A stretch of 64,000 nucleotides of DNA. Source: Silvibacterium acidisoli (lineage in GTDB: Bacteria > Acidobacteriota > Terriglobia > Terriglobales > Acidobacteriaceae). Positions 13,602 through 37,299 of this stretch are shown one piece after another. Location of the stretch: positions 2,046,001 through 2,110,000 of the forward strand of contig CP085323.1 of assembly GCA_022870745.1 (NCBI GenBank). Reading direction: 5' to 3'. The notes beneath the pieces were generated by a model. The model saw nothing but the letters and a program-made list of their open reading frames with translations, was not told where the DNA came from and ran no database searches. Both the position numbers and the translations under genes were made by a program. Position 1 is the stretch's first letter. Each line of letters begins with the position of its first letter.

Positions 13602-14684
13602 TTGCGATCACGCACGTCTTCGTGCGCGGATGGGGGCATTGTGCGAGAGGATCTCACGGGTTCGGATTTACGGAAGGTTTTCGAGCAGCATGGATTTGTA
13701 ACCGGTTCTGACTGTCTTCTTCCACTGCTTCGGAGAGCGATCAAGGCCGCAGAGGTAAGCGACGTAACCACGCTGATCGAAGGGGAAACCGGGACAGGCA
13801 AACAGGTTCTTGCCCAGGCGATCCATTCGCTCGATGGTAAGCGGAAGAACAACGCCTTCGTTACGGTTCACTGCAGCACTGTCAGCGAATCGTTGGCTGA
13901 AAGCGAGCTCTTCGGCCATCAGCGCGGAGCGTTTTCGGGCGCGTTCGCAAACCGCCGCGGACTCTTCCAGGCGGCGCGAAACGGCACGCTGTTTCTCGAC
14001 GACGTGAACGATCTGCCGCTCGTCCTGCAACCAAAACTGCTCGATGTTCTGCAGCGTGGGACGGTGCGTCCGGTAGGTTCGGACTTCGAGGTGCCGATCG
14101 ATGTGCGAATCATCGCCGCAGCGAACCGGCCACTGGAACCGCTGGTGAAAGAGGGCCGCTTCCGGCAGGATCTCTATCATCGCCTCAACGTGGTGCGGCT
14201 GGAACTGCCGCCGCTGCGTGAACGCCCCGCCGACTTCGCCAGCCTCATGCTGACCTTTGCGTGCCGCCATGCGGGGCTTTACCGCCCGATCCTCTCTGTC
14301 GATCCTGAGCTGCTGCGCTTCCTTGAATCGCAGCCAATCCTGGGCAATGTGCGCGAGTTGGAGAATGCAGTTCAGCGCATGCTGTTCCTGAAGACTGAAG
14401 GCGCATCGTTGACGCTTGAGGACTGGACGCGGCAGGTCAGCACGGAAGCGCCAGGCGAAAAGATCGACCTGATGGCGCAGACCGCAAACGCAGTCTGGCG
14501 CACGATTTCAAACGGCGAGTGCGGATACGGGCAGGCGCTGCAGGAACTAGAGAAGCGCGTACTGGAAGCAGCAATGAGCGTGCCTGGTTCGACGAGACGC
14601 AAGGTGGCGAAGCAGCTTCACATCAGTGAACGGGCGCTTTACTACAAGATGCGCGCGTGCGGCATCGCCAGCCGCATTCGATAG
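13602..14684 (+). CDS. Sigma-54-dependent transcriptional activator without sensor domain
   Basis: A 360-residue bacterial enhancer-binding protein of PspF-like layout. The AAA+ domain begins almost at once (Walker A GETGTGKQ, 61-68), with the sigma-54 contact loop GAFSGA (109-114), Walker B LFLDDVNDL (130-138) and a conserved arginine-rich FRQDLYHRLNVVRLELPPLRER segment. It ends in a Fis-type helix-turn-helix (about 333-356). There is no receiver, GAF or PAS domain. Two positions are unusual: GAFTGA is GAFSGA, and the Walker B Asp-Glu is Asp-Asp. No in-frame ATG exists near the start; TTG 13602 or GTG 13641 are possible. It lies directly upstream of the injection-system genes on the same strand, so it is the likely activator of that operon. 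Confidence 0.88.
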   Translation: MRSRTSSCADGGIVREDLTGSDLRKVFEQHGFVTGSDCLLPLLRRAIKAAEVSDVTTLIEGETGTGKQVLAQAIHSLDGKRKNNAFVTVHCSTVSESLAESELFGHQRGAFSGAFANRRGLFQAARNGTLFLDDVNDLPLVLQPKLLDVLQRGTVRPVGSDFEVPIDVRIIAAANRPLEPLVKEGRFRQDLYHRLNVVRLELPPLRERPADFASLMLTFACRHAGLYRPILSVDPELLRFLESQPILGNVRELENAVQRMLFLKTEGASLTLEDWTRQVSTEAPGEKIDLMAQTANAVWRTISNGECGYGQALQELEKRVLEAAMSVPGSTRRKVAKQLHISERALYYKMRACGIASRIR

Positions 14685-14702
14685 ATTCGTCTGCACTGCT
14701 TT

Positions 14703-14727
14703 GGGTCCGCACGTCGGCAGCGGACCC
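14703..14727. promoter_or_regulatory. Inverted repeat, candidate activator site 1 (or terminator of the regulator gene)
   Basis: GGGTCCGC (14703-14710), 9-nt spacer, GCGGACCC (14720-14727). It shares the half-sites GTCCGC and GCGGAC with the dyad at 14861-14880. The following bases (TATTTC) make only a poor T-run, so a terminator is possible but weak. A binding site for the upstream enhancer-binding protein is proposed. Confidence 0.45.
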
Positions 14728-14880: not shown

Positions 14881-15011
14881 ATGGTGCAGCTTGCGCTTCA
14901 CGCGATCTCTGGCCCTGCATCGCATGACAGCTTTGACAAGCGATGAAATTTGAATCGGTTACATGGCGGAGCCGCGCATATTCCACAAGCCTTGTACACG
15001 CATGCTTCATT

Positions 15012-15027
15012 TGGCTTGCCTCGTGCA
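15012..15027 (+). promoter_or_regulatory. Candidate sigma-54 (-24/-12) promoter of the injection-system operon
   Basis: TGGCTTG-N4-GTGCA compared with consensus TGGCACG-N4-TTGCA. The invariant GG (15013-15014) and GC (15025-15026) are separated by exactly 10 nt, and TGGC, the following G and the final TGCA match. Transcription would begin near 15038, between the activator gene and the first operon gene. The match is by eye and has three mismatches to consensus. Confidence 0.5.
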
Positions 15028-15080
15028 TACACGTATGCGCTTGCGACGGTTACTGCGAGCGGCTGGATGAAGGGGGCCAT

Positions 15081-15323
15081 CTGATAAGCCTCGGCGACAC
15101 TGTCCGGTTTCGCAGTATGGACATCTTTCTGCCGCTCGCGGATGAACTGCCTGGTGTGTTGAAGGAAAGTCCAGAGCTTGAAGGAACGATTCTGAGCTTT
15201 TCGGATTCAAGCCAGGAGCCTCGCGTGTTTGCAGTGGTAGAGGTTGTCATGCGCCGCAGTGTGGTGGTGCCGGTTGTGAAGCTGAAGTTGGTAGAAGCAG
15301 GCGACTCGACCGAGGACGGTTGA
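15081..15323 (+). CDS. Small hypothetical protein, first gene of the injection-system operon
   Basis: The frame is open from ATG 14943, which would give 126 residues, but the part before residue 47 is Cys-rich, lacks a ribosome site and would lie upstream of the predicted sigma-54 transcript start. A strong AGGGGG (15071-15076) precedes residue 47 (CTG at 15081), giving about 80 residues beginning L-I-S-L-G-D-T-V-R-F. The body alternates hydrophobic and charged residues in strand-like fashion (FAVVEVVMRRSVVVPVVKLKLVE). No family was recognised. Its place just before the sheath suggests a structural or assembly role (inference). Use of a CTG start is uncertain; ATG 15117 is another possibility. 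Confidence 0.5.
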   Translation: MISLGDTVRFRSMDIFLPLADELPGVLKESPELEGTILSFSDSSQEPRVFAVVEVVMRRSVVVPVVKLKLVEAGDSTEDG

Positions 15324-15372
15324 AGGTAGCGGGAATTTCAAGGGCATTTGTTGGAGAAAGGGAGAAGCATTT

Positions 15373-17376
15373 ATGCCAGTCACTCCTACATATCCGGGCG
15401 TCTACATCCAGGAGCTGCCGAGTCCGGTGCACTCGATTGCAGCCGTGGCGACGTCCATCACAGCATTTGTGGGCTACACCGCGCGCGGTATCGATAACCG
15501 GGCCGAAGAGATCTTCAGCTTCTCCGATTTCGAGAGGCTCTTCGGCGGTATTGCCTCGAACAGCGAACTGAGCTACGCCGTGCAGCAGTTCTTTCAGAAT
15601 GGAGGTGCGCAGGCATACGTAGTGCGAACTCCTGCGACTTCTCTTGGCGCTGCAAGTGCTTCGGTCACATTCGATGGCATAGAGTTCCTAGCACTGAGTA
15701 GCGGAACATGGGCAGACGGTGAGCTACTGGTAGACATCGATACGATCGGCGTAGATCTCACGGCGGATCCGCTGGCCTTCAACGTAACGATCACTGACCT
15801 GGCCGACAACACGACCGAGTACTTTCCCAGCGTGACGCTCGCCAGCGCAAAGAGCAACTTCATTACGGCGATCCTGAACGATCCGGATAATGGATCGCAA
15901 CTGGTGAAGGTTTCCTTTCCGGGAGCTACACCTACAACCGCCCCCACGGTCAGTGGAGTGACCGGCGCAGCAATCACCACAGCCTCGGTGAACACGGCGG
16001 TTGCAGGAAGCGCTACCGGGGCGACAGCGACGCAGGACTTCAGCCTGAAGGTAAGCACGAGCTTTCCTGCAACGGCTCCGGCACCGATGCCCATTACGGT
16101 GAAAGTTTTCGGAAGCGGGAGCGCCGTGCCGCAAACACTTGCCGGACTCGCTTCGAAGGTGCAGCAGGCGATGAATGCAGTACTCGCAGTGCAGATGCCG
16201 GGGGCCAGCGTGCAATGCACCGTTGCGCCGAGCGGAACTGGGCAGGCCCTGCGCATCAATGCCCTGCTTCCGCAAAATCCTGATGCGGTCGTTACGTTCG
16301 CGAGCACGGGAAGCGGCGGCGATGCATCGGCTGCGCTGGGACTCTCGGCGCCGGTGGTAGCCAATGTTGCGCACTACACAATCGGATCGGGCAACGCGCA
16401 TGGAGCCCAGACGGCGTCAGTCAAAGGAAAAGACGGAACAGGCTTACCGCAGACTGCAGACATCATCGGTGACCATGCGACTTTCACCGGCATCTACGCG
16501 CTCGATAAGGTGGACCTGTTCAATCTGCTGAGCATTCCCGATGCGGCGCGCGCGTTGGCAAGCGACCCCAACGCGGCAGATCCGAGCATCAATGCGCTGG
16601 CGATCTACAGTGCCGCGATTACGATGTGCGACCAGCGGCGTGCGTTCCTTTTGTGCGATCCTCCGCCTAACGTCAACTCTGTATTGGGAGCCGTGGACTG
16701 GATATCGGATAACCTTGGCGTGATCGATCCCAACGGCGCTGCGTTCTTCCCCCGGCTGCGATTGGCCGACCCCGCAAATAACTATCAGCTTCGCACCTTT
16801 GCACCTTCTGGTGTGGTGGCAGGGGTGTATGCGAGCATCGACGGCTCGCGTGGGGTATGGAAGGCGCCCGCAGGAATCGAAGCCACGCTGAACGGCGTAC
16901 AGAGCATGACTTACAAACTGAGCGATCCCGAAAACGGTGTGCTCAATCCGCTGGGACTGAACTGCTTCCGTAACTTTCCTGTTTATGGATCGGTGCTTTG
17001 GGGCGCCCGGACACTGGTCGGCGCCGATGCGATGACGAATCAGTGGAAGTATGTTCCGGTGCGGCGCATGGCGCTGTTCCTCGAAGAGAGCCTGTATCGG
17101 GGCACGAAATGGGTGGTCTTCGAGCCGAATGACGAACCGCTATGGGCTGCAATTCGTTTGAACATCGGCGCGTTCATGCAGACCTATTTTCTAAAAGGCG
17201 CATTCCAGGGGCAGACGCCGGACCAGGCCTACTTTGTGAAGTGTGACAGTGAGACGACTACGCAGACCGACATCGACAACGGCGTAGTGAACATCCTCGT
17301 CGGCTTTGCTCCGTTAAAGCCGGCGGAGTTTGTGGTGATCCAGATCGAGCAGCTAACCGGGCAGGCCCAGAGTTAA
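15373..17376 (+). CDS. Contractile tail sheath protein
   Basis: A 667-residue sheath protein. The N-terminus (PTYPGVYIQELPSP, then ITAFVGYTARG) is the classic sheath start that donates the strand linking neighbouring subunits. The C-terminal third (RRMALFLEESLYRGTKWVVFEPNDEPLW, then NIGAFMQTYFLKGAFQG) is the conserved core common to phage, T6SS-like and eCIS sheaths. Between about residues 95 and 365 is a large Ala/Thr/Gly-rich beta-type insertion, making it longer than Afp/PVC sheaths. On contraction the sheath drives the inner tube out of the particle. It is the only sheath gene in the locus; Afp and PVC carry three. A GGGAG lies about 9 nt before the ATG, and the tube gene follows 12 bp later. 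Confidence 0.95.
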   Translation: MPVTPTYPGVYIQELPSPVHSIAAVATSITAFVGYTARGIDNRAEEIFSFSDFERLFGGIASNSELSYAVQQFFQNGGAQAYVVRTPATSLGAASASVTFDGIEFLALSSGTWADGELLVDIDTIGVDLTADPLAFNVTITDLADNTTEYFPSVTLASAKSNFITAILNDPDNGSQLVKVSFPGATPTTAPTVSGVTGAAITTASVNTAVAGSATGATATQDFSLKVSTSFPATAPAPMPITVKVFGSGSAVPQTLAGLASKVQQAMNAVLAVQMPGASVQCTVAPSGTGQALRINALLPQNPDAVVTFASTGSGGDASAALGLSAPVVANVAHYTIGSGNAHGAQTASVKGKDGTGLPQTADIIGDHATFTGIYALDKVDLFNLLSIPDAARALASDPNAADPSINALAIYSAAITMCDQRRAFLLCDPPPNVNSVLGAVDWISDNLGVIDPNGAAFFPRLRLADPANNYQLRTFAPSGVVAGVYASIDGSRGVWKAPAGIEATLNGVQSMTYKLSDPENGVLNPLGLNCFRNFPVYGSVLWGARTLVGADAMTNQWKYVPVRRMALFLEESLYRGTKWVVFEPNDEPLWAAIRLNIGAFMQTYFLKGAFQGQTPDQAYFVKCDSETTTQTDIDNGVVNILVGFAPLKPAEFVVIQIEQLTGQAQS

Positions 17377-17388: not shown

Positions 17389-17916
17389 ATGGCGAATTTT
17401 GTCGTCAATGCGCAGCGCTTTGATCCCTATAAGAACTTCAAGTTCCGGCTTAAGTGGGATAACCATTACGTCGCCGGCATAAGCAAAGTCAGCGGTCTTA
17501 AGCGGACCACGGAAGTTGTGAAGCATCGCGAAGGTGGCGACCCCAGCACGAGTCGCAAGTCGCCGGGCCGCACCGAATATGACGCGATCACGCTTGAGCG
17601 CGGCGTCACTCATGACCTTGATTTCGAAGCCTGGGCAACGAAGGTGTGGCAGTTGAATGCGACGCTCGGATCGGAAGTCTCGCTCGCGGATTTTCGTAAG
17701 GAGATGATTCTCGAGTTCTACAACGAAGCGGGACAGCTTGCGATCAGTTACAAGATCCATCGCGCCTGGGTGTCGGAGTTCCAGGCCCTTCCCGATCTCG
17801 ATGCGAATGCGAATGCCGTGGCAATACAGCACATAAAGCTAGAGAACGAAGGATGGGAGCGGGACACGGCGGTCACTGAACCTACCGAGCAGGTTTTGAC
17901 ACCACCACGCGGATAG
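17389..17916 (+). CDS. Tail tube protein (gp19/Hcp-like)
   Basis: A 175-residue tube subunit of the conserved phage-tail tube family: the start NAQRFDPYKNFKFRLKW, the VAGISKVSGLKRTTEVVKHREGG block typical of eCIS tubes, and a C-terminal NANAVAIQHIKLENEGWERD. Hexameric rings of this protein would stack to form the hollow inner tube through which cargo passes. A clear AAGGTG ribosome site precedes the ATG. Only one copy is present, directly after the sheath, as in the simpler cyanobacterial and actinobacterial systems rather than the multi-tube Afp/PVC systems. Confidence 0.95.
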   Translation: MANFVVNAQRFDPYKNFKFRLKWDNHYVAGISKVSGLKRTTEVVKHREGGDPSTSRKSPGRTEYDAITLERGVTHDLDFEAWATKVWQLNATLGSEVSLADFRKEMILEFYNEAGQLAISYKIHRAWVSEFQALPDLDANANAVAIQHIKLENEGWERDTAVTEPTEQVLTPPRG

Positions 17917-17948: not shown

Positions 17949-18653
17949 ATGCGGGCCTTGAACGGAGAATTGCTGCTGCGGGCGTGGGATGAAGGCGCGG
18001 AGAGAGATGATCTTCTTCGCGGCATGATCATGCTGTCGCTTGCATTGGATGAAGAAGACCCGGGCAGACCGCTGAACCTGCCATTGCCGGAGTGCAATCG
18101 GTTGTTGCTGCAACTGCGCGAAATCAGTTTTGGGCCGATTCTGGAGGGCTTTCACCGCTGCCCGGAATGCGGTGAGGCTTCTGAGTTCTCAATCCCTATC
18201 GCCGTGCTGCGAAGTGAGCTTGGCAGCAACAGAGAGCTGGCAGAGGCGTCATGGGAAGAAGGCGGAGCAAGATATCGCATGCGGCAGGCAACACCGGACG
18301 ACATGCTGGCGGTGCGGAATATCGCAGATGCCGAAGAGGCGCAGGCGGCCCTCATCCATCGATGCCTGCTTGAGGGCGAAATGCCCAGCGAGCAGGCGCC
18401 ACTCGTGGAACGTTTTGAAGCGCTGCATAAGGGAGCAGAGATGAGCTGCATGCTGGTTTGCCCGGCGTGTGCGCATAAGGGCGGGTTCGACCTGGACATC
18501 ATGCGCTTTCTCTGGAGAGAAACCAGGGCGGCTGCGTTGCGGCTGCTCGAAGAAGTGCACGATCTGGCATGGGCATACGGCTGGAGTGAAGCGTCGATTG
18601 TGAGTATGAGTGGTGTTCGTCGCGCTGCCTATCTTGAGATGGTGCGCGCATGA
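17949..18653 (+). CDS. T4 gp26-like baseplate hub assembly protein with two CxxC pairs
   Basis: A 234-residue protein resembling the T4 baseplate-hub-assembly chaperone family (gp26-like) found after the tube gene in many contractile tail loci. Characteristic features are the N-terminal LLLRAWDEG...RGMIMLSLA helix region and the C-terminal AWAYGWSEASIVSMS...RAAYLEMV segment. Two CPxC pairs (C71/C74 and C171/C174), a hundred residues apart, probably bind one zinc ion together. Its last bases overlap the next start (ATGA, 18650-18653), implying translational coupling. The exact role in eCIS is not established; chaperone or hub assembly is inferred from the family. Confidence 0.75.
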   Translation: MRALNGELLLRAWDEGAERDDLLRGMIMLSLALDEEDPGRPLNLPLPECNRLLLQLREISFGPILEGFHRCPECGEASEFSIPIAVLRSELGSNRELAEASWEEGGARYRMRQATPDDMLAVRNIADAEEAQAALIHRCLLEGEMPSEQAPLVERFEALHKGAEMSCMLVCPACAHKGGFDLDIMRFLWRETRAAALRLLEEVHDLAWAYGWSEASIVSMSGVRRAAYLEMVRA

Positions 18654-19366
18654 GTGGACTGATACAGCGAATGATTCAGCGGGCAAACGGTCCTGTTCCT
18701 GGTATCGAACCGCTCATGCTGCCAAAGTATGCACGAGGCCGTGAAGAAGCGGGCGAGGCATTTTCCGTATCTGGTAGCGGAGATGCCAAAAACGTAACGA
18801 TTGCTGAGGCAAATATCCGAAACCATTCTTCACATTTATTTTCGGAGGCTTCGCATGGTTTGCGAATTCATACCGCGGAGAGCGATGTCGAGAAATCTTC
18901 GAAGAGTACCGGGTTGCTGCCCAAAGATAACATCGCTCAGCAAACGTCTGGCAAGCCTCAGTCCCGGCCTGATGCACCTGTAATTGCATCGGCGAGGAAA
19001 GAGTTGCCTGCCGAGAAAAAAAAGGAGCAGCCGGGAGATGAAGTTGCGGTAAAGCCAACCGGCAGGGATGAGAAGAGTGGCAGGCAGGAAGCCACATCGC
19101 GCGAAGTTTTTCTCAAGAGAATCGAGGCCTCGCCAGACACCACCACTAGAAGAACGGAGGCCGTATCCAGTTCGCCGAAGCAAGCATTGCGCAAAGAGGT
19201 GGTGAGAGCCGATGTCTCGATACAAGCACGACCGGTCACGATTTCTATTGGGCATATCGAGGTGCGAGCAACGCAGCAACCTGCCGTTTCGCCCCGCAAG
19301 CCTGCTTTCCAGCCCGGCGTCTCGCTTGCGCATTTTCTAAAGCGTGAAGGCGGTGCTCGCTCATGA
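18650..19366 (+). CDS. Disordered linker-like protein of the injection-system operon
   Basis: A 238-residue protein with no recognised domain. Nearly the whole length is polar and probably disordered (runs rich in Lys, Glu, Ser, Pro). Only the C-terminus looks ordered: a strand VTISIGHIEVRA, a Pro-rich spacer and PGVSLAHFLKREGGAR, an arrangement often seen in small proteins at this position in contractile-tail loci. The 5' third is distinctly AT-rich (line 18781-18840 is 38% GC by hand count) against its neighbours. It overlaps both neighbours by ATGA. Possible roles are a sheath/cap adaptor or tube-length determinant; neither is demonstrated. Confidence 0.65.
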   Translation: MSGLIQRMIQRANGPVPGIEPLMLPKYARGREEAGEAFSVSGSGDAKNVTIAEANIRNHSSHLFSEASHGLRIHTAESDVEKSSKSTGLLPKDNIAQQTSGKPQSRPDAPVIASARKELPAEKKKEQPGDEVAVKPTGRDEKSGRQEATSREVFLKRIEASPDTTTRRTEAVSSSPKQALRKEVVRADVSIQARPVTISIGHIEVRATQQPAVSPRKPAFQPGVSLAHFLKREGGARS

Positions 19367-20601
19367 GCGATTACCTCGCAGTTGGAGGAGTGACTGCTGT
19401 GCTTTGTTCGCTGCTCAATACGGCGCTCACCAGCGGAGGGCCAAGTTCTCTGCTCGGCTCGTCGTCACCCGGCGTGACGGCGGTTTCGCCGGACCTGATC
19501 AAGACCGGCCCTGACGAGCAGCCGCAACTGAACCTCTTCATGTACTACGCCAGTCTCAATCCGGCATTACGAAATGTGGGCATGCCGTCGGTCAGCGCGC
19601 AGGGAGGCAAACTCAGCAATCCTCCGCTGGCGATCAACCTGCACTACCTGGTATCCGCATACGGGGCGCATCAGTTCGATTCGGAGATCTTGCTGGGTTG
19701 GGCGATGCAGGTGTTTCATGACAACCCTGTTGTGCCGCGCGCAACCATGCAGAGTGCGCTGACGGATTTGCTTGCGCATGTGAGTCCGGAGACGCAACTG
19801 GTGAGCGGGAGTACATTGCCGGATCAGCTTGAACATATCCGCATCACGCCTGAAGCTCTTACGACGGAAGAGATCTATCGCCTCTGGACGGCTTTCCAGA
19901 CGAGCTATCGTCCGACGACTTCCTATCAGGTTTCTGTCGTGGTGATACAGGACACGCAGTCTTATAAATCGAATCTTCCCGTGCAGAAGCGCGCGCTGGT
20001 TGCGTTACCGCTGCAGGCCCCGATTGTAGAGACGATTACTCCGGTGAAGGCGATTGCCGGTCAGGTCATCACGCTCACCGGAAGCAACTTCCTTGGGGAC
20101 TCGCCCGCCGATACGACCGTCTCATTCGACCAGGGCGCCGGCATAAGTCCAAACACGCTTACCGGCAACTCGCTGACGGTCACGCTGCCTGCTTCACTGC
20201 AGGCGGGAACTCGAACGCTTCGCGTGCTGCGCAGCGTTACCTATCCCGGCTCTACAACACCGCATCCCGGTTTCAGTTCCAGTGCCGCGGTATTTCAGCT
20301 CATTCCGGCGATCCAGGGCTCCTCTCCGTTTACTGCGACGAGAGGAGCGGATTTTACGGTGACGATCTCTCCGCCGGTTGGCAGTGCGCAGCAGGCTGTG
20401 CTCTATGTCGGGGACGATGCCATCCCGATCCAGGAGCGGTCTGCTACCGGCCCGGCCACTTCGACCACGCTCAAATTCCCTATTCCATCCACGTTTGCAG
20501 CCGGGCTCTACCCATTGCGCGTGGAAATCGACGGCGCACAGAGCGCGCTTACAGCCGACAGCAGCGGCAAGTTCCATCCGCAATTGCAGGTGAACGTATG
20601 A
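19363..20601 (+). CDS. DUF4255 (Pvc16-like) cap protein with IPT/TIG domain
   Basis: A 412-residue protein. The N-terminal 195 residues match DUF4255/Pvc16-type proteins: VGGVTAVLCSLLNTAL at the start, then LNLFMYYASLNPALRN, LAINLHYLVSAYG, and SEILLGWAMQVFHDNPV. In Afp/PVC particles this domain forms the terminator cap that closes the distal end of tube and sheath. It continues with an IPT/TIG immunoglobulin-like domain (about 222-295, ITPVKAIAGQVITLTGSNF) and a second Ig-like region to the C-terminus, presumably displayed at the tip. ATGA overlaps join it to both neighbours. Confidence 0.85.
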   Translation: MSDYLAVGGVTAVLCSLLNTALTSGGPSSLLGSSSPGVTAVSPDLIKTGPDEQPQLNLFMYYASLNPALRNVGMPSVSAQGGKLSNPPLAINLHYLVSAYGAHQFDSEILLGWAMQVFHDNPVVPRATMQSALTDLLAHVSPETQLVSGSTLPDQLEHIRITPEALTTEEIYRLWTAFQTSYRPTTSYQVSVVVIQDTQSYKSNLPVQKRALVALPLQAPIVETITPVKAIAGQVITLTGSNFLGDSPADTTVSFDQGAGISPNTLTGNSLTVTLPASLQAGTRTLRVLRSVTYPGSTTPHPGFSSSAAVFQLIPAIQGSSPFTATRGADFTVTISPPVGSAQQAVLYVGDDAIPIQERSATGPATSTTLKFPIPSTFAAGLYPLRVEIDGAQSALTADSSGKFHPQLQVNV

Positions 20602-22493: not shown

Positions 22494-22813
22494 GACACAA
22501 GCCGTCGATGCCGCCGGGCCTTCAAGGCCGGCCCGCGACCGCGCTGTCCTCCGCACCATTGCGTGTAGAGATAGGCAGGCTCACGATCGAAGGCTATACA
22601 CGGCTACAGCAACGGCTCTTTACGGAGTCATTCCACCAGAGTCTGCGGACGATGATGGCATCGCTCGACTCGACACAAGCCAGTGTGAATCGGGCGATAA
22701 GACGGCTCGATATTGGAAGTCTTCAGATGGGCACGTCCGCGAAAGAAGCGGGAGATGAAGTGGCCCGCCGGATTGTTTCCTCCATCTTCAAAAGCTCCGG
22801 GAGGAAGATCTGA
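22490..22813 (+). CDS. Small conserved-type protein of the injection-system operon
   Basis: A 107-residue basic protein without a recognised family. A Pro-rich N-terminus is followed by the strand LRVEIGRLTIEGY and two amphipathic helices (LQQRLFTESFHQSLRTMMASL and DEVARRIVSSIF). Small proteins of the form 'hydrophobic strand plus I-x-R-L-x-I/V-x-G, then helices' occur beside the ATPase in other eCIS loci, where their role is unknown. It starts in an ATGA overlap with the ATPase and shares one base with the next gene, so it is surely translated as part of the set. Confidence 0.7.
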   Translation: MRHKPSMPPGLQGRPATALSSAPLRVEIGRLTIEGYTRLQQRLFTESFHQSLRTMMASLDSTQASVNRAIRRLDIGSLQMGTSAKEAGDEVARRIVSSIFKSSGRKI

Positions 22814-23415
22814 TGTCGAATATTTCACCTCGCCTGCAGAAGGGCGCGCTGCTCACATTCGATCCCATCCTGGGCATTCCGCTCAACACGATCATGCTGC
22901 AGTACAACCCGGAGACGTTGAGCAGATCGCTCAAGCCGCAGAGTGTGGGAGATGAGCCGGACCGTACCGAGATCCTGCGCCTGAAAGGGCCGCCGGTCGA
23001 AACGATCAAGTGCGATGTGGAACTCGACGCCACCGATCAGTTGGCAAATTCGGATGCGACTACGATCGCGCTGGGAATACAGCCGCAACTTTCAGTGCTG
23101 GAGCTGCTGGTGTATCCATCCAGCGCGGTGTTGATCGCGAACGAAGTGCTTTCGCTCCTCGGCACGGTGGAAATACTGCCCATGGAATCAGCACTCACGG
23201 TATTCGCATGGAGCAAGAGCCGCATTACGCCGGTGCGCATCACGGATCTCGAAATTACGGAAGAAGCCTTCGACCCGCAGTTGAATCCGATTCGCGCGAA
23301 GATTTCGCTGGGCATGCGTGTGCTCAGCGTCAACGATGTGGGATTCCTGACACCGGCCGGAGCGCTCTACATGATTTACCAGCTCACAAAGGAGTCGCTG
23401 GCGCAGCGCGCCTGA
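22813..23415 (+). CDS. CIS tube-initiator/gp53-like baseplate protein (Afp7/Pvc7-type)
   Basis: A 200-residue protein of the contractile-injection-system tube-protein N-terminal-domain family: FDPILGIPLNTIMLQYNPETLSRSLKPQ at the start, the LKGPPVETIKCDVELDATDQL block and a C-terminal ITDLEITEEAFDPQLNPIRAKISLGMRVL. In PVC/Afp this family joins the tube to the spike and baseplate and carries a LysM domain at its C-terminus. Here the LysM-like part is encoded separately by the next gene. It starts within TGATG, with a good GAGGAAG site. Confidence 0.82.
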   Translation: MSNISPRLQKGALLTFDPILGIPLNTIMLQYNPETLSRSLKPQSVGDEPDRTEILRLKGPPVETIKCDVELDATDQLANSDATTIALGIQPQLSVLELLVYPSSAVLIANEVLSLLGTVEILPMESALTVFAWSKSRITPVRITDLEITEEAFDPQLNPIRAKISLGMRVLSVNDVGFLTPAGALYMIYQLTKESLAQRA

Positions 23416-25764: not shown

Positions 25765-25771
25765 GGAAATG

Positions 25772-28593: not shown

Positions 28594-31397
28594 GCGGCGG
28601 GTGCCTGCTTCCTGATGAAGAGCTTTGCGGCTGCTGCGCAGGTGTGGAGCAGGAGACGCCGCAGGTCATCTCCAACAGGCCGGCGTTGTCGTCCATCGCT
28701 TATCGCGCCGGTACGTATTCAACCTTCAATGCCAGTATGCTGGCCGCGCTCTCCGACCCGGAGTACCCGCTGCTTGGGCTGCTGCGTACACGCGATGCGT
28801 CAGACTTTAGCATCGCGCTGCTCGATGCGTGGGCGGTAACGCTCGATGTGCTCACCTTCTACCAGGAGCGTTTTGCGAACGAAGCTTATCTGCGCACGGC
28901 CGTGGATCAGAGATCGGTCTTTGAACTGGCGCGGCTGGTTGGTTATGTGCCGTCTCCCGGCGTGGCTGCATCCGCGGTCCTGGCCTTTACCTTGATGAGC
29001 GCCAGCGGCTCGCCTGACAACGTGCGTATTCCTGCCGGAACGCGGGTGCAGAGCGTGCCTGGTCCAGGCGAGACGCCGCAGACCTTCGAAACATCGCAGG
29101 ACCTGACCGCGGTGATTGCGTTGAACGCATTGCCCGCGCAGACGACGATTCCGTGGCAACTCGTGGGCAGCGACACCAGTGCCTGGATTTCAGGAACCGC
29201 AAACAACATCAATGCGGGCGATGCATTGCTCTTTCTCACGGCGCAGAACGGTGCGCCGGTGACGAACGGTCCGGCAGATGTCCATTATGTAACGGCTGTC
29301 GTAACAGATACTGCGTCGGGCAATACGAACGTCAGCTGGGATCAGCCGCTCTCGGCGAACTTTGCCGCCGAAGCCACGGCGGATGATGTATGCGTGTATG
29401 TCTTCCGGAAAAAGGCTGCTCTCTATGGCGTGCAGGCGCCGAATCCTCTGTCTTTAGGAAGCTTAACTTCGAACCCGAATCTCGCGAACATCCCGGGTTA
29501 TCCGTCATCGATCGGTCCGGGCTCTGACTGGAACTTTATCTACGATGAGGACAGTTACCAGGTTCATCTGGACGCGTCTTATCCGGGACTTGCACCACAG
29601 TCAGGAGTGACGCAGTTCGCGATTCTTACCGGGCTCGGTTACACCTCGTATTTCACTATCAACGCGGCGAGCGAATCGAATCCCAACCGCTACACGCTCA
29701 CGACGAAGACAACCCAGCTTACGTTGGGATGGGGAGGCATTCTTGCGGGCGACCCTTATCTGTCGCTTAACTCTCTGCTCTGGGAATTTGTGCAGGAGAC
29801 CCGCAATATCACGGCTTACGTGCAGAGCGTGCAACTATCGCTTCCGGATATTCCGCTCGCCGCATCCAGCTTCGGTGGTGTCCGCATTGTGCCCGGCATG
29901 AGCCTGCCTGTGCAGGGATCGTCAATTACGCTCGTGGGTGGCCAGCAGATCGCTTCGAGTCAGCCAATAGGCGTCTCAGGCAGGCGAACACGGCTGCAGG
30001 TGCTTCATGGAGATCAGGCGGTGTTTATACCTGCGAGCTCTGATGCAGTACTTGTTGTGACCGACAATCAGCTCTTCGTTGTCGATAGTTATCCGCCAGG
30101 AACAGATTCCGTGACCGCTCTGCCTGAGTGGAGCGTTATCACGGTCGCGGGAATTGCCGGCACACTTGTCGCCGACTCGACCAATGTTCTGCTCGTGCCC
30201 TCTGCAAAGCAGGACGCCGTCGTTAGTGAAGCTGCACAGGTGAATGGAGTCGTAGTCGCGGGTGATCTTACGACACTGAGCCTGCTCGCACCACTTACCC
30301 GGATCTACGATGCACCGACAGTGGCGGTAAATGCGAATGCGGTTGAAGCGACCAACGGCGAGACCGTTCAGGAGATTCTAGGCAGCGGCGACGCTGGCAA
30401 TGACGCGCTGCAGTTCACCCTCAAGCAAACCCCGCTCACCTACATCACATCGCCTTCCGGAAATGGTTCGCAGAGCACGCTCGAGGTGTGGGTAAACAAT
30501 CTGCGCTGGCAGGAGGTGTCTAACCTTCTCTCTTCGAGTCCGGCTGACCGTGTGTATGTAACGCGAACCAATGCGCAGGGGAAAACAGTCATCCAGTTCG
30601 GAAACGGATCGCAGGGGGCGATTCCTCCAACCGGGCAGGCAAATATCCGTGCTGTCTACCGTAAGGGAATTGGCCTTGGAGGCATGGTCAACGCTGGCCA
30701 GCTCTCGCAGCCGATTGATCGCCCTCAAGGATTAAAGACGGTGAGCAATCCTGGCCCTGCTACCGGGGCCGCGGATCCAGCTACGCCAGCCGATGCACGC
30801 CGGAGTGCTCCCATGCCCACGCTGACAATTGGGCGCGTAGTTTCTCTGGAGGACTACCAGAACTTCGCGCTCGCTTTTGCAGGCATCGCGAAGGCGCTGG
30901 CTACGTGGACGTGGTTCGGAAACATTCGCGGTGTCTTTCTTTCGATCGCAGGCGAGAACGGCGCGACATTCCAGAAGATCGATCCGATTGTTACGAATCT
31001 TGTTAAGGCGCTTCAGTCGAACGGAAATCCTTACGTGCCGTTGCAGGTGGCATCGTATGCGCCTGTGCTCTTTGAGTTTGCAGCGAACGTAAATATCGAT
31101 CAGGAGCGGTACGACCCGAAGCTGGTACTCGAACAGGTGTGGCAGAACGTGACCTCAGCATTCGCTTTTGCGCAGCGTGACCTTGCACAGAATGTCGCGG
31201 CGAGCGAGGTAACAAGCATTCTTCAGAGCACGTCCGGAGTGATCGCGGTTCAACTGAAGAGTCTCTCGCTCAGCGGCCAGCCCTTGTCTGCTGCGATCCC
31301 CATGCAGCTTTGCGCTTCTGGCCCATTACCGCCTCAAGGCGCGCAGATGTTGGTGCTCGATCCGCAGACGCGGGGGAATCTTGGAGTATGGTCATGA
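28590..31397 (+). CDS. Baseplate J-like wedge protein 2
   Basis: A 935-residue second putative baseplate assembly protein, unlike the first in sequence. The N-terminus is Cys-rich (C5, C13, C15, C16) and is followed by PALSSIAYRAGTYSTFNASMLAAL and by DAWAVTLDVLTFYQERFANEAYLRTA, both strongly typical. A J-like core lies near the C-terminal third (KTVIQFGNGSQGAIPPTGQANIRAVYRKGIGLGGMVNAGQ, then a helical region). Long beta-rich stretches lie between. Two J-type proteins in tandem also occur in other eCIS loci, where the second resembles gp7/Afp12. ATG 28590 overlaps the previous stop by ATGA. Confidence 0.88.
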   Translation: MSGGCLLPDEELCGCCAGVEQETPQVISNRPALSSIAYRAGTYSTFNASMLAALSDPEYPLLGLLRTRDASDFSIALLDAWAVTLDVLTFYQERFANEAYLRTAVDQRSVFELARLVGYVPSPGVAASAVLAFTLMSASGSPDNVRIPAGTRVQSVPGPGETPQTFETSQDLTAVIALNALPAQTTIPWQLVGSDTSAWISGTANNINAGDALLFLTAQNGAPVTNGPADVHYVTAVVTDTASGNTNVSWDQPLSANFAAEATADDVCVYVFRKKAALYGVQAPNPLSLGSLTSNPNLANIPGYPSSIGPGSDWNFIYDEDSYQVHLDASYPGLAPQSGVTQFAILTGLGYTSYFTINAASESNPNRYTLTTKTTQLTLGWGGILAGDPYLSLNSLLWEFVQETRNITAYVQSVQLSLPDIPLAASSFGGVRIVPGMSLPVQGSSITLVGGQQIASSQPIGVSGRRTRLQVLHGDQAVFIPASSDAVLVVTDNQLFVVDSYPPGTDSVTALPEWSVITVAGIAGTLVADSTNVLLVPSAKQDAVVSEAAQVNGVVVAGDLTTLSLLAPLTRIYDAPTVAVNANAVEATNGETVQEILGSGDAGNDALQFTLKQTPLTYITSPSGNGSQSTLEVWVNNLRWQEVSNLLSSSPADRVYVTRTNAQGKTVIQFGNGSQGAIPPTGQANIRAVYRKGIGLGGMVNAGQLSQPIDRPQGLKTVSNPGPATGAADPATPADARRSAPMPTLTIGRVVSLEDYQNFALAFAGIAKALATWTWFGNIRGVFLSIAGENGATFQKIDPIVTNLVKALQSNGNPYVPLQVASYAPVLFEFAANVNIDQERYDPKLVLEQVWQNVTSAFAFAQRDLAQNVAASEVTSILQSTSGVIAVQLKSLSLSGQPLSAAIPMQLCASGPLPPQGAQMLVLDPQTRGNLGVWS

Positions 31398-33691
31398 GCC
31401 TGAGCGCCGATCAGCTGTTTGCGCTGCTGCCAGCCGTTTATCGTGATCGCGATGCGCTCAATGGTGGCCCCCTTGAAGCGATCTTCTCCATTCTTGCTGC
31501 CCAGGCCGGGATCGTTGAAGACAATATTCAGCAGCTCTACGACGATCAGTTCATCGAGACCTGCGCGTCATGGGTGATTCCCTATATCGGCGATCTGCTC
31601 GGCTACAACTCGATTTACGAGGTTACAGGCGCAAGCTTCGACAGCCGCGCCGAGGTCGCGAACACGATCAGCTACCGCAGGCGCAAAGGAACTCTCATCG
31701 CGCTCGAACAATTGACGATGGATGTTTCGGGGCGCGCTTCCATGGTCGTTGAAGAGTTCAAGCGGCTTATCACGACTGAGAGCATGCGCCATGTACGGGC
31801 AAGGCACAAGGCTACAGTCAGCGTTCGCCGTCTTGAGCCCTGGAAGCTTGAAGAGAATGCATTCGAGCACGCGAACTATAACGTAGACGTACGCCGTATC
31901 GCACCACGCACGCGAGTGGCGGCAAGCCCTGATGCGACACCTCTCGATATTGCATTGCATGGTCCGGGGCGGTTCAACATACCTGATATTGCGATTCATC
32001 TTTGGCGGCTTCGGAGCTGGCCCGTGAGAAATGCTCCGGTAGTTTCGTCGGGCGAAGGCTGTTACCTGTTCAGTCCCTTCGGGTTCGAGATGCCCTTGTT
32101 CTCGCAACCGGCGCCGCGTGATTCCTTCGAGCGCCTTACCGGGCGCATCGATGTGCCGCAGCCGATCGGCCGGATGGAGTTTCGAGATAGTCTTGCGGAT
32201 GCAAACGCACCTCAGTTCTATGGCCCGGGCGCAAGCGTCCTGCTGATTGCCGATGGCATGCCCGTCGATGGTTCGATGATCCGGTCTGCGAACCTCACGG
32301 GAAGCCAAAGATGCAATGTTCCTCACGGCTGTATCGCTGTCGATCCACAGGCAGGGAGAATTCAGTATGCCGATGATCTCGAATTGCCGCTCGAACTGCG
32401 CGTGAACTACTCCTACGGCTTTGCGGGTGAGATCGGTGGCGGACCCTACGATCGCTCGGCTTCGCTGTCATCGTTGAAGCCTGCTCAGGTGGAATTGTTT
32501 GCGGTAGTAGGTTCCCTTGAATACCCCACTGTAAGCGACGCGGTCGTTGCATGGAACATGTTGGCTCCAGGAGCGAGCGGGATCATCGTGCTTCCCGCCT
32601 TCGAGCGCCACGCCATAGACCTTACCGAAGCAGGAGCGATTGAACTGCCGGCGGGGAGCAGCCTGACGATTGCTTCGGGCGTTCCGATTCCACAAGGTGG
32701 CCCACTGGATGTGGTCTGGAACAATGCGTGCGCCACGCTCATCGGCAACATGGAAGTTCGCGGGACCATCGGGCGAGTGTTGCTCGAAGGAGAAATAGAG
32801 CCGGCCGGCTCGCTGCTGTTGAGCGGTGTGTGGATTGCCGGGCAGATCACTCTGAGCGGCCTCACTTCTAATGTGCAGCTGATGGATAGCACGCTGGTTC
32901 CCGGCCTGGCGCTGAATAATCATCTGCAGCCTGTTGCGCCGGGTGAGCCGAGCGTCATCGTGACAGCGGCAGAAGCAAGCCTTTCGCTCGTGCGTTGTGT
33001 CTGTGGACCGGTTGCCGCCAATGCCGGCGGGTCTGCGCGCATCTGCTCGAGCATCGTCGATGCTACCTCGCCATGTTGCGTGGCATACGCTGCACCGGAC
33101 ATGGCCTCAGCCGGTGCCGATCTTCACATAGAAGACAGCACGGTTATCGGCAAGGTCCACGCGCGGACGCTGCCATTGGCGTCGAATACGCTTTTCTACG
33201 CTCACCAGCCGCGCCGGGATCCATGGGCGGCTCCAGTATGGATCAGCCGCAAGCAGACTGGCTGCGTGCGTTTCTGCTGGCTGCCGTTCAACTCGATTAC
33301 ACCGCGCCGCTACGAATGCCTGCCGCCAGGCTCCGACACGCAGGCCGCATTGGAGCCGCGTTTTATATCGCTGCGTTATGGGCGGCCGGGATACGGCATG
33401 TTCAGCGGAGATGTTCCTCTCGCCATCTGGAATGGAGCCGATAACGGCTCGCAGATCGGTGTCTACCTGCAGATCCAGGAAAGCGAAGCGGTGAGAAATG
33501 TCCAGCTCCGTGCACCGGAATACTTACCCATCGGGCTGGAGAGTGGAATCTTCCTGCACCCGTCGCGCTGTGTCCTTGAAGAGGCGCCCGCGCCGGTCTT
33601 TGTTTACGGAAAGGCAATTCATCCTCGTGGCTGCGGCTGCGAACAAGAGGAGCGCCCGCAGTGGGCCGGCATCGGCGGCGGGCTTATGTAG
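31394..33691 (+). CDS. gpI-like tail protein fused to a beta-rich, partly beta-helical region
   Basis: A 765-residue protein. The N-terminal 160 residues resemble phage tail protein I (LFALLPAVYRDRDALNGGPLEAIFSILAAQ, then WVIPYIGDLLG and SRAEVANTISYRRRKGTLIALEQL), a wedge component. The remaining 600 residues are beta-rich. From about 380 to 600 short strands with repeated Gly/Ser turns (for example SLSLVRCVCGPVAANAGGSARICSSIVDA) look like a right-handed beta-helix, a fold common in receptor-binding fibres. The C-terminus has a CGC motif. The fusion may place a target-binding element directly on the wedge. It starts in an ATGA overlap with the preceding gene. Confidence 0.82.
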   Translation: MSLSADQLFALLPAVYRDRDALNGGPLEAIFSILAAQAGIVEDNIQQLYDDQFIETCASWVIPYIGDLLGYNSIYEVTGASFDSRAEVANTISYRRRKGTLIALEQLTMDVSGRASMVVEEFKRLITTESMRHVRARHKATVSVRRLEPWKLEENAFEHANYNVDVRRIAPRTRVAASPDATPLDIALHGPGRFNIPDIAIHLWRLRSWPVRNAPVVSSGEGCYLFSPFGFEMPLFSQPAPRDSFERLTGRIDVPQPIGRMEFRDSLADANAPQFYGPGASVLLIADGMPVDGSMIRSANLTGSQRCNVPHGCIAVDPQAGRIQYADDLELPLELRVNYSYGFAGEIGGGPYDRSASLSSLKPAQVELFAVVGSLEYPTVSDAVVAWNMLAPGASGIIVLPAFERHAIDLTEAGAIELPAGSSLTIASGVPIPQGGPLDVVWNNACATLIGNMEVRGTIGRVLLEGEIEPAGSLLLSGVWIAGQITLSGLTSNVQLMDSTLVPGLALNNHLQPVAPGEPSVIVTAAEASLSLVRCVCGPVAANAGGSARICSSIVDATSPCCVAYAAPDMASAGADLHIEDSTVIGKVHARTLPLASNTLFYAHQPRRDPWAAPVWISRKQTGCVRFCWLPFNSITPRRYECLPPGSDTQAALEPRFISLRYGRPGYGMFSGDVPLAIWNGADNGSQIGVYLQIQESEAVRNVQLRAPEYLPIGLESGIFLHPSRCVLEEAPAPVFVYGKAIHPRGCGCEQEERPQWAGIGGGLM

Positions 33692-33728: not shown

Positions 33729-36344
33729 ATGAAAGGCGACTTCAGCCGGATACGGTTTAACCCAGGCAGTCATTACACGGCTGTTCTAGAACAGCAGGGC
33801 CGTGTTGCACTCGATGCTGACGCGAATGAGAGATCTGCGATCCAGGCGTATCTTCGCAAGACCGAGACGATTGACGTAGTCGGCGAATATGGCGCGCCTG
33901 CAGATGTGGCAGGTTTCGCCATCACTCTTTCAGGCACCACGATCGTTATCGGCGCCGGACGCTACTACGTGCAGGGACTGCTGTGTGAAAACAGCCAGGA
34001 TGGTCTGGCGTACGGCAGCCAGCCATACCTGATTCATCCATCAGTCAGTGACGGCTCTCTGATTGGCCAGCTGGCGCAAAGCGGTGGCGCCGTGCAGGTT
34101 TTTCTTGAGGTGTGGCAGCGTGTTGTGACGGCACTCGACGATGCCTGCCTGCGTGAGCCTGCATTGGGACAGGCCGACAGCACCGCGCGATTACAGACGG
34201 TCTGGCGCGTGGTTGCAGAATATGTGCAGCCCGCATCGGGCTTTTCCAGGAATGCTGAAACGGCCGCAGGCCACAGGTTGCCGCTCCGGCCACTCCAGGC
34301 CGCTTCTATCGATCGTTCCTCCGCGGTGAAGATGCAGGCGGCGTTGCGGCAAAAGACTTCGTCCGTTGTTGCCAGGCAACGGCTCGCCGCCACGCTCGCA
34401 GGAATTGAAGCTGAGAGAGGGACTCTTGCGAGCAGCGCTTCCGAAGCGCCAGCAGCGACGGTGGGACCGAATGTCACCGCGGACTGCTGCAGCCAGATGT
34501 ACGCGGCGACCCCGTTCGTCAGCACGGGAACCATGTGCGCCGCGACAAACCAGGGAGCATCCGATTGCTCGTGCCAGCCGGTTGCAGCTGCCGGATACCA
34601 GGGGCTGGAGAATCAACTTTATCGTGTCGAGATTCATCGTTCCGGCGATGAATTGACGGCCATGTTCAAGTGGTCGCGCGAGAATGCGTCGGTCGTTACA
34701 GCCATCAACAGCGTGAACGGCGCGACGGTCTGGGTGGATTCGCTGGGGCCGGATGCAAATCTCGGCTTCCAGGTGAATCAATGGGTCGAGGTCTATGACG
34801 ACAGCGCGATCTTCGGGCAGATACCGAACCAACCCGGTCTGCTCTACCAGATTCTGAGCATCGATCCAACCGGCCCGTCGGTAACCTTCACCTCGCCGGT
34901 CGTCGGAGTGGATACATCGCTGCATGCGCGCATGCGCAGATGGGACCAGTCTGGCGGAGCAGATACCATGGACGGCATCCCCCTGCCGGTCAATTCGTGG
35001 GCGACACTTGAGAATGGCATCCAGGTTAGTTTCGGAGCCGGCACCTACCAGGCGGGAGATTACTGGACGATCCCCGCGCGCACGGCATCGGGCACGATTG
35101 AATGGCCGCCATGCGGCAGCGATGGCAGCCTGTATCAACCTGCTCACGCAAACCCTGTCTATCGCGCTCCTCTTGCGTGCATTCACTGGAGTGATCTGAC
35201 CGGGGCACCGCTGATTGAATCCTGCCGGCGCATCTTTTATCCGCTCACATCTCTGGCTCCAGGAGCTTCACAAGGTTCGATCCACATCTCGGCCTATAGC
35301 TGGCAGAACGATGATGTGATGACGTTCGATCAACTTCTCGCATCCGGACTCTCGCTGACGGTCGATCAACTGCCAACGTCTCCGCTGAGCGGATCGAGCA
35401 TGATCGTGAGCATCGAGACGGTGAACACATCCATACTGAGTTCCAACAACCAGGAGGCGCGGGCAGCCGCTTCGAATACATCTGCGAAGCCGCTGTCTAC
35501 GCTGATTAACTATGCGGAGCTGGTAAAAACTCTTCCCCTGCTTTCTTCCATCCTTGACTGGGATCTGTCGTTGAACATCAGCACCATGCAGATTCAGTGG
35601 ATGCTGCCGAGTCTCGATCTCGACGGTGTTCGCGGTCTCTATCTCCAGATGATCAACCAGAACCTGCTGGGTCTGCTGGCAACCTTCGGGCTTGCTGCAC
35701 GCGCGCGTGTAAAGCTTCTGGGTTCGGCGATCTTTGCGCAGAATGGAAACAACACCGCATATCTCGACGGCGAAAGTGCCGGTATTCCGTCGCTGCAGCA
35801 GGATGGAAAGACCCCATGCATTGCACTGCAGATGCCTTCGGGGAGCGGCCGAAAGACGAGTGATTTCGAAGGGTGGTTTTACCTCGCGCCTTACAACGAT
35901 GTAGTGAATCTTTCGATGAACGCCACCTCTCTCACGATCGTGCTGTCACAGTTCGGCACGGTCTCAGGAGTTGTCACGGGGGATCCTCCCCAGGCGGTTA
36001 CGCCACAGCTCACGGTACAGCTCACTTATCCGGCTGCATTGGCTGCGGGCGCCGCGGTGGATCTCTCGCTGACGGCAATTACAGCGGGCGTCAATCCAGG
36101 CAGCTATGTGAGCCTGGAAACAACCCGGCTCCTGATTCCAAAAGGACAGGATTCCGGCGCGGTCAATCTCAATGTGTTCGGCAATCCCGGTGAGGGCAAC
36201 ACTTACAACTTCCAGGTTGCGGCAGTTGCGGAGTTCGCCTTTGGATCTCCGGTTACGAAGATGGTTACGTTCAGCCTGATCGGTGTTCAGGGCGGCATCT
36301 CGGTTTTTCCGATCGGCAGAGCGCCGATCATTCCGGTTCTGTAG
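33729..36344 (+). CDS. DUF6519-type tail-associated protein
   Basis: An 871-residue protein. Its start, MKGDFSRIRFNPGSHYTAVLEQQGRVALDADANE, is the hallmark of DUF6519-type proteins found next to eCIS and phage-tail baseplate genes. A Cys cluster lies at C253, C254, C270, C280, C282. Residues 291-470 are beta-rich (YRVEIHRSGD...TAMFKWSRENASVV), a helical stretch follows (about 590-660), and the last 150 residues look like Ig-type strands. It may be a fibre or baseplate-attached target-recognition protein; this is inferred from position and size. AGGTGAGCG precedes the ATG, 37 bp after the previous stop. Confidence 0.78.
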   Translation: MKGDFSRIRFNPGSHYTAVLEQQGRVALDADANERSAIQAYLRKTETIDVVGEYGAPADVAGFAITLSGTTIVIGAGRYYVQGLLCENSQDGLAYGSQPYLIHPSVSDGSLIGQLAQSGGAVQVFLEVWQRVVTALDDACLREPALGQADSTARLQTVWRVVAEYVQPASGFSRNAETAAGHRLPLRPLQAASIDRSSAVKMQAALRQKTSSVVARQRLAATLAGIEAERGTLASSASEAPAATVGPNVTADCCSQMYAATPFVSTGTMCAATNQGASDCSCQPVAAAGYQGLENQLYRVEIHRSGDELTAMFKWSRENASVVTAINSVNGATVWVDSLGPDANLGFQVNQWVEVYDDSAIFGQIPNQPGLLYQILSIDPTGPSVTFTSPVVGVDTSLHARMRRWDQSGGADTMDGIPLPVNSWATLENGIQVSFGAGTYQAGDYWTIPARTASGTIEWPPCGSDGSLYQPAHANPVYRAPLACIHWSDLTGAPLIESCRRIFYPLTSLAPGASQGSIHISAYSWQNDDVMTFDQLLASGLSLTVDQLPTSPLSGSSMIVSIETVNTSILSSNNQEARAAASNTSAKPLSTLINYAELVKTLPLLSSILDWDLSLNISTMQIQWMLPSLDLDGVRGLYLQMINQNLLGLLATFGLAARARVKLLGSAIFAQNGNNTAYLDGESAGIPSLQQDGKTPCIALQMPSGSGRKTSDFEGWFYLAPYNDVVNLSMNATSLTIVLSQFGTVSGVVTGDPPQAVTPQLTVQLTYPAALAAGAAVDLSLTAITAGVNPGSYVSLETTRLLIPKGQDSGAVNLNVFGNPGEGNTYNFQVAAVAEFAFGSPVTKMVTFSLIGVQGGISVFPIGRAPIIPVL

Positions 36345-36366
36345 AGACGGTTAAGGGGGAGCCGTA

Positions 36367-37299
36367 ATGCGTGCAGTGTGGTCGTTCTGGAGCAAGCCGT
36401 TCCGGGAGTACAAGGGGCGTATCTGGTACAGCCCGCTGCATCACCTGCTGGCATGGGGGCTGTCACAGCGGGCCGCGCGCAGGCATCATCCGGAGACCGT
36501 TCTGATTACCGACAGCGCCGGCAAGGCGCTGCTGGTCAATTGCCTGGGATTGTCCTTCGATCATGTTTCTACGGAGTTGGACACGCTCCACTCCGTCGAT
36601 CCTGGCTGGTGGGCGCTCGGCAAACTGGTGGCCTATTCCCTGCAGGACAAACCATTCGTCCACCTCGATACTGATGTCTTTCTGTGGAAGGCCTTACCGC
36701 AGTCGCTGCTGTGTGCCGATGTTTTCTCGCAGTGCCCCGAAGATCATCCGCCGCTGGCGGAATGGTGCACGCCCGGTGACGTTGAGCATGCCTTCGAGCG
36801 GCAGGGCGCCACGCTGCCGGTGGAGTGGGAGTGGTCGCGTTCGCGCGGGCTGCGTTATTATCGCGAGGCTAACTGCGGCATATTCGGCGGCAATCGGGTC
36901 GACTTCATTCGCTATTATTCGAACCTGGCGATTGATCTCGTCCTGAACCCGGAGCATGCAGCCGCGTGGAACAGCTTTCACGACAGGTCCGGATTCAACA
37001 TGGTGGTGGAGCAGTTTCTTGCGCAGTCCTGCGTGGACTTTCACCGCTCCCACCCCGACTCTCCTTTTCGCGGCGTGAGCATGCGGTATCTCTTCCAGAG
37101 TCTTGAAGAAGCCTTTCATCCCGATTCGGCGGTAAGAGCCGGTTTCACGCATTTGCTGGGCGACGCAAAGCGTGACACGTCGATCGCCTCCCGGATTGAA
37201 CAGCGATGCCTCGACGAGGACAGGGATTTCTATCGGCATTGCGTGCAGCTTTCGCGCAGCGAAGCCGTTATGAATCCCGCGGGCTTGCAAGCCCGATGA
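36367..37299 (+). CDS. DUF6734-like protein with glycosyltransferase-type DxD motif
   Basis: A 310-residue protein beginning MRAVWSFWSKPF, as in DUF6734 proteins. LITDSAGKALL near residue 46 and FVHLDTDVFLW with Asp101-x-Asp103 resemble the nucleotide-sugar and metal-binding parts of GT-A glycosyltransferases; WWALGKLVAYSLQ sits between them. A later YREANCGIFGGN fits the acceptor-side loop of such folds. No signal peptide or membrane segment is seen. It follows the DUF6519 gene by 22 bp with GGGGGAG before the ATG, so it belongs to the operon. Two readings are open: an injected cargo enzyme that glycosylates a target, or an enzyme that decorates the particle or cell. The last codons contain a perfect 16-bp palindrome (37280-37295). 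Confidence 0.72.
   Translation: MRAVWSFWSKPFREYKGRIWYSPLHHLLAWGLSQRAARRHHPETVLITDSAGKALLVNCLGLSFDHVSTELDTLHSVDPGWWALGKLVAYSLQDKPFVHLDTDVFLWKALPQSLLCADVFSQCPEDHPPLAEWCTPGDVEHAFERQGATLPVEWEWSRSRGLRYYREANCGIFGGNRVDFIRYYSNLAIDLVLNPEHAAAWNSFHDRSGFNMVVEQFLAQSCVDFHRSHPDSPFRGVSMRYLFQSLEEAFHPDSAVRAGFTHLLGDAKRDTSIASRIEQRCLDEDRDFYRHCVQLSRSEAVMNPAGLQAR

Follow-up and report, generated by a model that had tools for sequence, protein, structure and literature searches.

The stretch analysed here (the window, 64,000 nucleotides) comprises bases 2,046,001-2,110,000 of the single-contig complete genome (5,359,900 bases, 5.36 Mb) of the acidobacterium Silvibacterium acidisoli. Its forward strand encodes, between window positions 13602 and 37299, 20 open reading frames (ORFs), namely a sigma-54 activator, a 126-aa ORF and 18 genes of a contractile injection system (CIS). 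The 18 CIS genes are collinear and co-directional (15373-37299), with spacing that ranges from an overlap of 10 bases to a gap of 37 bases. The cluster is a complete chromosomal CIS situated amid housekeeping genes and is not a prophage, and its final gene, encoding a DUF6734 protein with the predicted GT-A fold of glycosyltransferases, is a fixed component that defines a lineage of such CIS blocks. The 20 ORFs, with the E-values of their matches (numbers of loci refer to this lineage), are:

13602..14684, + strand, sigma-54 activator (AAA+, Fis helix-turn-helix, no receiver domain matched); PF00158 5e-58, HTH_8 2e-6
14943..15323, + strand, small 126-aa ORF preceding the sheath, no family; weak outgroup match in G032 (38% over 71 aa, upstream of the sheath)
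15373..17376, + strand, sheath, 667 aa; PF17482 6e-11, phrog_23 6e-45, PDB 8bky 1.9e-72
17389..17916, + strand, inner tube; PF06841 5e-43
17949..18653, + strand, T4-baseplate-like protein; PF12322 4e-7
18650..19366, + strand, protein of disordered appearance; its C-terminus has a conserved element, ISIGHIEVRA ... FxPxxSLxxFL (read by eye); ORF in place in 19/19 loci
19363..20601, + strand, cap (Pvc16_N and TIG domains); PF14065 1e-44, PF01833 3e-7
20598..22493, + strand, AAA+ ATPase carrying a winged-helix domain, of Pvc15 type judging by position; PF00004 2e-26, PF22977 4e-15
22490..22813, + strand, 107-aa protein, candidate plug; ORF in place in 18/19 loci
22813..23415, + strand, tube initiator; PF19266 (CIS_tube) 7e-4, below cut-off; 54-80% identity in 18/18 loci
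23430..23795, + strand, LysM-like baseplate protein; phrog_7145 / phrog_232 3e-6; 43-76% identity in 18/18 loci
23788..24924, + strand, hub (gp27/VgrG-like); NF033848 2e-4, below cut-off; 42-77% identity in 18/18 loci
24936..25445, + strand, spike; PF04717 5e-20
25447..25764, + strand, PAAR-like tip (DUF4280); PF14107 8e-4, below cut-off
25769..26137, + strand, gp25 baseplate wedge; PF04965 6e-15
26134..28593, + strand, baseplate J-type protein 1; TIGR02243 2e-66
28590..31397, + strand, baseplate J-type protein 2 (J2); TIGR02243 5e-63
31388..33691, + strand, gpI / Tail_P2_I-type protein, likely fibre adaptor; phrog_521 0.002
33729..36344, + strand, tail fibre with DUF6519 (eBAP5) anchor and more variable C-terminal part; PF20129 1e-56, residues 1-468
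36367..37299, + strand, DUF6734, GT-A-fold glycosyltransferase-like, final gene of the conserved block; family match 5e-50

The initial annotation of this DNA had proposed an injection cluster of about 19 genes on one strand, in agreement with the roles assigned here by family matches; the components it listed are matched by families as well, but the last gene, DUF6734, had been left unnamed. The marker set of extracellular CIS (eCIS), i.e. sheath, tube, Pvc16_N cap, AAA+ ATPase, spike, PAAR-like tip, gp25 and J proteins, is present in this one cluster, with the matches of the tube initiator, hub and PAAR-like protein falling below the curated cut-offs. The LysM-like label is a partial fit: that protein matches a PHROG baseplate wedge family (3e-6) but no LysM family. 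The likely starts of four genes were corrected (LysM-like, 23430; hub, 23788; J2, 28590; gpI, 31388). Sheath and T4_gp19 tube are each matched once in the whole genome, where no second copy of either was found.

The lineage comparison covers 19 loci including the window (G000), i.e. 18 relatives, in 19 different genomes of Acidobacteria, Dyella and its relatives, Rhodanobacter and Paraburkholderia (the named isolates include Dyella and Edaphobacter strains; G088 and G121 were taken as one genome, judging from their identical contig coordinates). In all 19 carriers DUF6734 lies immediately 3' of the CIS fibre gene, and the order sheath, DUF6519, DUF6734 is identical throughout; 17 loci have a gap of -4 to 23 bases between the last two genes, and the other two have gaps of 43 and 110 bases. 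This linkage is not merely an artefact of the sheath search, since 11 of the 19 loci were found by the DUF6734 model itself (nine if the two centre genomes are excluded). The DUF6734 copies align over their full length, with 47-60% identity to the copy in the window, and their divergence correlates with that of the core genes (r = 0.91). Both aspartates of the DxD motif, D101 and D103, are invariant in the 18 sequences aligned of the 19 found, and the nineteenth (G017) likewise reads DTD. A search with the DUF6734 sequence against solved structures reported no match even at E 10, and the protein is only ~14% identical to glycogenin and other GT-A glycosyltransferases, with its activity a prediction. 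It exhibits neither a leader nor an eCIS_core domain, it has zero matches in 50,697 phage records, and the term "DUF6734" was not found in the open-licence literature searched. Two distant homologues (L097 and L098) are encoded on Bacteroidota plasmids beside VKOR genes, and one of these stretches also holds a lantibiotic dehydratase and a peptidase ABC transporter.

DUF6734 is restricted to a minority of the genomes surveyed. Of 120 genomes of the family, 19 have a sheath match (two of them marginal, 4.5e-4 and 7.2e-4) and four have DUF6734, all of them among the 19, which leaves 15 sheath-bearing genomes without it. The yield was 4/396 among genomes of the phylum, 5/250 in the order of Dyella halodurans and 12/27 among genomes fetched by their sheath.

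With tblastn, 16 of the 18 CIS genes are matched in each of the 18 other lineage loci, the inner tube being the most conserved (mean 0.90); the disordered ORF is matched in 10 of these loci and the 107-aa ORF in 8, with ORFs in their place in 18/18 and 17/18, respectively. These two proteins carry similar short motifs (ISIGHIEVRA and VEIGRLTIEG) and are perhaps docking or plug elements. One locus, G481, has ~10 kb extra between the ATPase and the tube initiator. In a tree of seven genes the eight loci from Proteobacteria group together (SH-aLRT 100), and this group nests inside the acidobacterial loci when the tree is rooted on G481; this root is a single long-branched row, hence the direction is tentative, and the placement of the window is unsupported. 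The acidobacterial setting given in the initial annotation is too narrow as a limit, since Gamma- and Betaproteobacteria carry this block too. The eight proteobacterial loci (G124, G125, G126, G128, G143, G144, G582 and G760) have in common a small protein encoded ahead of the sheath gene, for which blastp reported no match in the acidobacterial loci. A search of the open-licence literature by title and abstract found no study of an acidobacterial CIS; an acidobacterial sheath is tabulated in PMC9230969.

The fibre gene is central to the classification. According to PMC12923769, DUF6519 is eBAP5, the baseplate anchor of eCIS tail fibres, and the window protein has this domain at its N-terminus; DUF6519 had been listed in the initial annotation, its identity as a tail-fibre class having been missed. 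Across the 19 loci the first 60% of the fibre is conserved, save for one variable insert (decile 0.22), and the last 40% is less conserved (deciles 0.40-0.54). Searches with the gpI and DUF6519 sequences against solved structures reported matches at chance level only; Tail_P2_I was detected in 4/19 gpI orthologues (E <= 0.01, best 0.0036), the window's own not among them, and Phage_Mu_Gp48 in 5/19. In three of four family loci without DUF6734 the ORF at the fibre position is 1187, 1244 and 1307 aa long, versus 521-992 aa in the lineage (starts unchecked), and in the fourth (G109) a 1109-aa ORF overlaps gpI, with a real length possibly near 990; fibre length as a correlate of DUF6734 is only a hint. 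After the fibre in two of the loci without DUF6734 (G040 and G102) there are, respectively, a 287-aa ORF without a family, a DUF2520 and a BshC gene, and GH8 and GH115 genes. The window cluster resembles the eBAP5/Tail_P2_I subtype of eCIS (PMC12923769) in its DUF6519 fibre following a gene of likely gpI/Tail_P2_I type and in its set of AAA+, Pvc16_N and CIS_tube proteins, but differs in having two TIGR02243 J-type proteins and DUF6734 after the fibre, and the lineage differs in carrying its cargo after DUF6734 or outside the cluster. The main text of that paper has no mention of "Acidobacteri".

Candidate cargo is encoded by genes with the eCIS_core domain (DUF4157, PF13699), at least one of which is present in all 19 lineage genomes. 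One to three such genes follow DUF6734 in 14/19 loci; in G481 they are located between the ATPase and the tube initiator, and no intact copy is found in the cluster in the window, G126, G140 (which has fragments upstream of the sheath) and G146. These genes mostly have only the eCIS_core domain in common. Both the ATPase and the tube initiator were matched in 12 other CIS loci, nine of which have eCIS_core between the two; in G109 it stands behind the fibre, and the stretches read of L017 and G040 show none. In 18/19 lineage loci this slot, often cargo-holding in other CIS, is occupied by the 107-aa ORF. The window genome has two eCIS_core genes, both remote from the cluster, at positions 2,382,201 and 4,121,023, the products of which are, we infer, cargo of the window CIS. 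The first (680 aa) is similar to the second gene after DUF6734 in G120, both in the domain (56% over 84 aa) and in a further region (28% over 250 columns), which in the 680-aa protein gives a sub-threshold deaminase match (XOO_2897-deam, E 0.0037); the second, of 543 aa, contains two HExxH motifs. In the family, 13/15 genomes with eCIS_core have a sheath match and 6/19 sheath-bearing genomes lack eCIS_core; the domain was rejected as a sure sign of a CIS, as two of the 15 (G117 and G028) have no sheath match. One of the two eCIS_core proteins in a stretch of G117 (L108) bears a GNAT domain.

The sigma-54 activator, described in the initial annotation as the system's own regulator, is not a conserved part of it: a same-strand match upstream was found in 0/18 lineage relatives (the sequence available on that side is <1 kb for G481, 3 kb for G140), and two lineage loci, G126 and G128, have matches downstream in antisense orientation. 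A scan of the window for sigma-54 promoters reported 35 sites versus 34 expected, with none between the regulator and the sheath (14684-15373). Outside the lineage, 7/15 CIS loci have a match to it upstream on the same strand (identity 37-45%; L014 and L016, both among the seven, are near-copies); judging from these matches, sigma-54 control may recur in such systems.

The flanks are chromosomal in character. Upstream genes encode an outer-membrane barrel, CheB/CheR-PAS and GGDEF/EAL proteins, and downstream genes include ruvB (convergent, 3 bases past DUF6734), an acyltransferase and a gyrase-A gene. A Pfam scan of 20 flanking ORFs (part of the flanks) found no head, terminase, lysis or integrase family, which bears out the earlier claim of a complete CIS without adjoining phage head genes. 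Farther away, at 61756-63330, the window encodes a PMT_2-type mannosyltransferase-like protein, with no evidence of a connection to the CIS.

Among known systems, the single-sheath layout is, as had been proposed, near the Streptomyces type, the best solved sheath being 8bky (E 1.9e-72). The structure 7adz, which we take to be AlgoCIS, is more distant (E 1e-39). 8bky is from the CIS of S. coelicolor (8bky/8bl4), a cytoplasmic system for which PMC10066040 reports no Afp14-like tape measure (none was recognised in the window cluster either), no conventional fibre, two tube homologues and no PAAR-like gene; the window cluster, in contrast, has a fibre gene, one T4_gp19 tube gene and a PAAR-like gene. 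The same source describes Streptomyces clusters as lacking a conventional fibre, and by this feature of the Streptomyces type (IId) the window cluster, with its DUF6519 fibre, falls outside it. AlgoCIS of Algoriphagus (PMC8894135) likewise has DUF4157 cargo, with a disordered N-terminus and differing C-termini, and its Cgo1 has two HExxH motifs like one eCIS_core protein of the window genome, but its cargo is encoded inside the cluster and not remotely. Compared to Afp/PVC, the window sheath is homologous to Pvc2 (E 1e-47) and the Pvc16_N cap is common to both, whereas PVC has three sheath paralogues (Pvc2-4) versus one here, and Afp13 contrasts with the DUF6519 fibre.

We favour, with a probability of about 0.5, the interpretation that the cluster encodes a fibre-bearing chromosomal eCIS of the eBAP5 type, in which the glycosyltransferase-like DUF6734 of the lineage acts on a particle protein in the producing cell. 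A particle of sheath, tube and baseplate would be assembled in the cytoplasm with its own AAA+ ATPase, loaded with eCIS_core cargo and then released; it would bind a target cell via the DUF6519 fibre, and contraction would push the tube and the cargo into that cell. DUF6734 would most likely act earlier, in the producer, by adding a sugar to a particle protein, with the fibre as the first candidate acceptor and the cargo as the second.

That the cluster is instead a decaying prophage tail or an R-type tailocin is very improbable. CIS do derive from phage tails, and the genome has a single Phage_portal hit, at 1,674,116, so a prophage or its remnant is indicated there; this gene is, however, ~384 kb from the CIS, the scanned flanks are housekeeping, and two markers of CIS, the AAA+ ATPase and the Pvc16_N cap, are present. 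The closest relatives are chromosomal CIS and not prophage tails, as had been anticipated: best-segment sheath identity is 52-73% in the 27 genome loci found by sheath, while phage records yield 208 matches to the sheath, none spanning 80% or more of its length, with at most 34.3% identity among the ten listed, and DUF6734 has no match in the phage records searched. A system acting inside its own cell, like the cytoplasmic CIS of Streptomyces, and mediating cell death rather than attack is improbable, if far less so. Among solved sheaths the S. coelicolor one is nearest, the flanks scanned showed no lysis gene, and CIS from Deinococcota, of the same lineage as Roseiflexus (IId), were observed unattached in the cytoplasm (PMC12998442); on the other hand, Streptomyces clusters have no conventional fibre, whereas here a DUF6519 fibre gene is present and its C-terminal part is variable among relatives. 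The fibre gene indirectly favours release and attachment to a target, and an extracellular particle is favoured over an intracellular one.

The conserved DUF6734 suggests that the syringe either sugar-coats a part of its own or injects a sugar-adding enzyme. The latter alternative, with DUF6734 as a glycosyltransferase effector and the sole cargo retained lineage-wide, is unlikely, yet the best placed of the rivals. eCIS toxins tend toward the 3' end of the operon (PMC8213781), and DUF6734 is retained in the four of 19 genomes, the window's included, without an intact eCIS_core gene in the cluster. Against injection, the protein has no leader and no eCIS_core domain, it is conserved over its full length whereas eCIS_core genes mostly share the domain only, and an eCIS_core gene is usually next after it (14/19). 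Several observations weigh against modification in the producer by an extracellular system. A core effector would account for the conserved last gene equally well, and one eCIS toxin related to Afp18 is a glycosyltransferase (PMC10598620); the two distant DUF6734 homologues have no CIS adjoining. The fibre model is weak (pLDDT 68.1, pTM 0.48), with generic fold matches (query TM <= 0.14); the closest solved sheath comes from a cytoplasmic CIS, and release is unexplained because no lysis gene was seen. Finally, the membrane-complex gene IcmF (TssM) of type VI secretion systems (T6SS) is absent from the cluster but has a sole genome hit at 5,036,518 (TssJ and TssL were not searched), which suggests that a T6SS may exist in this genome alongside the CIS; and G117, which belongs to the same genus and has no sheath match, combines two eCIS_core genes and a VgrG in one 16-kb stretch. 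Because of this gene and this stretch, eCIS_core cargo may be shared with T6SS, and the remote cargo may serve a T6SS.

Extending the favoured interpretation, we tentatively propose, at somewhat less than even odds, that this CIS lineage glycosylates its own fibre or cargo by a dedicated enzyme, making targeting or cargo activity sugar-dependent, and that the module is of acidobacterial origin with one crossing into Proteobacteria. If the enzyme indeed decorates the particle, post-translational modification would be a layer of control over CIS targeting or cargo; if DUF6734 is injected instead, it would be an effector conserved throughout the lineage.
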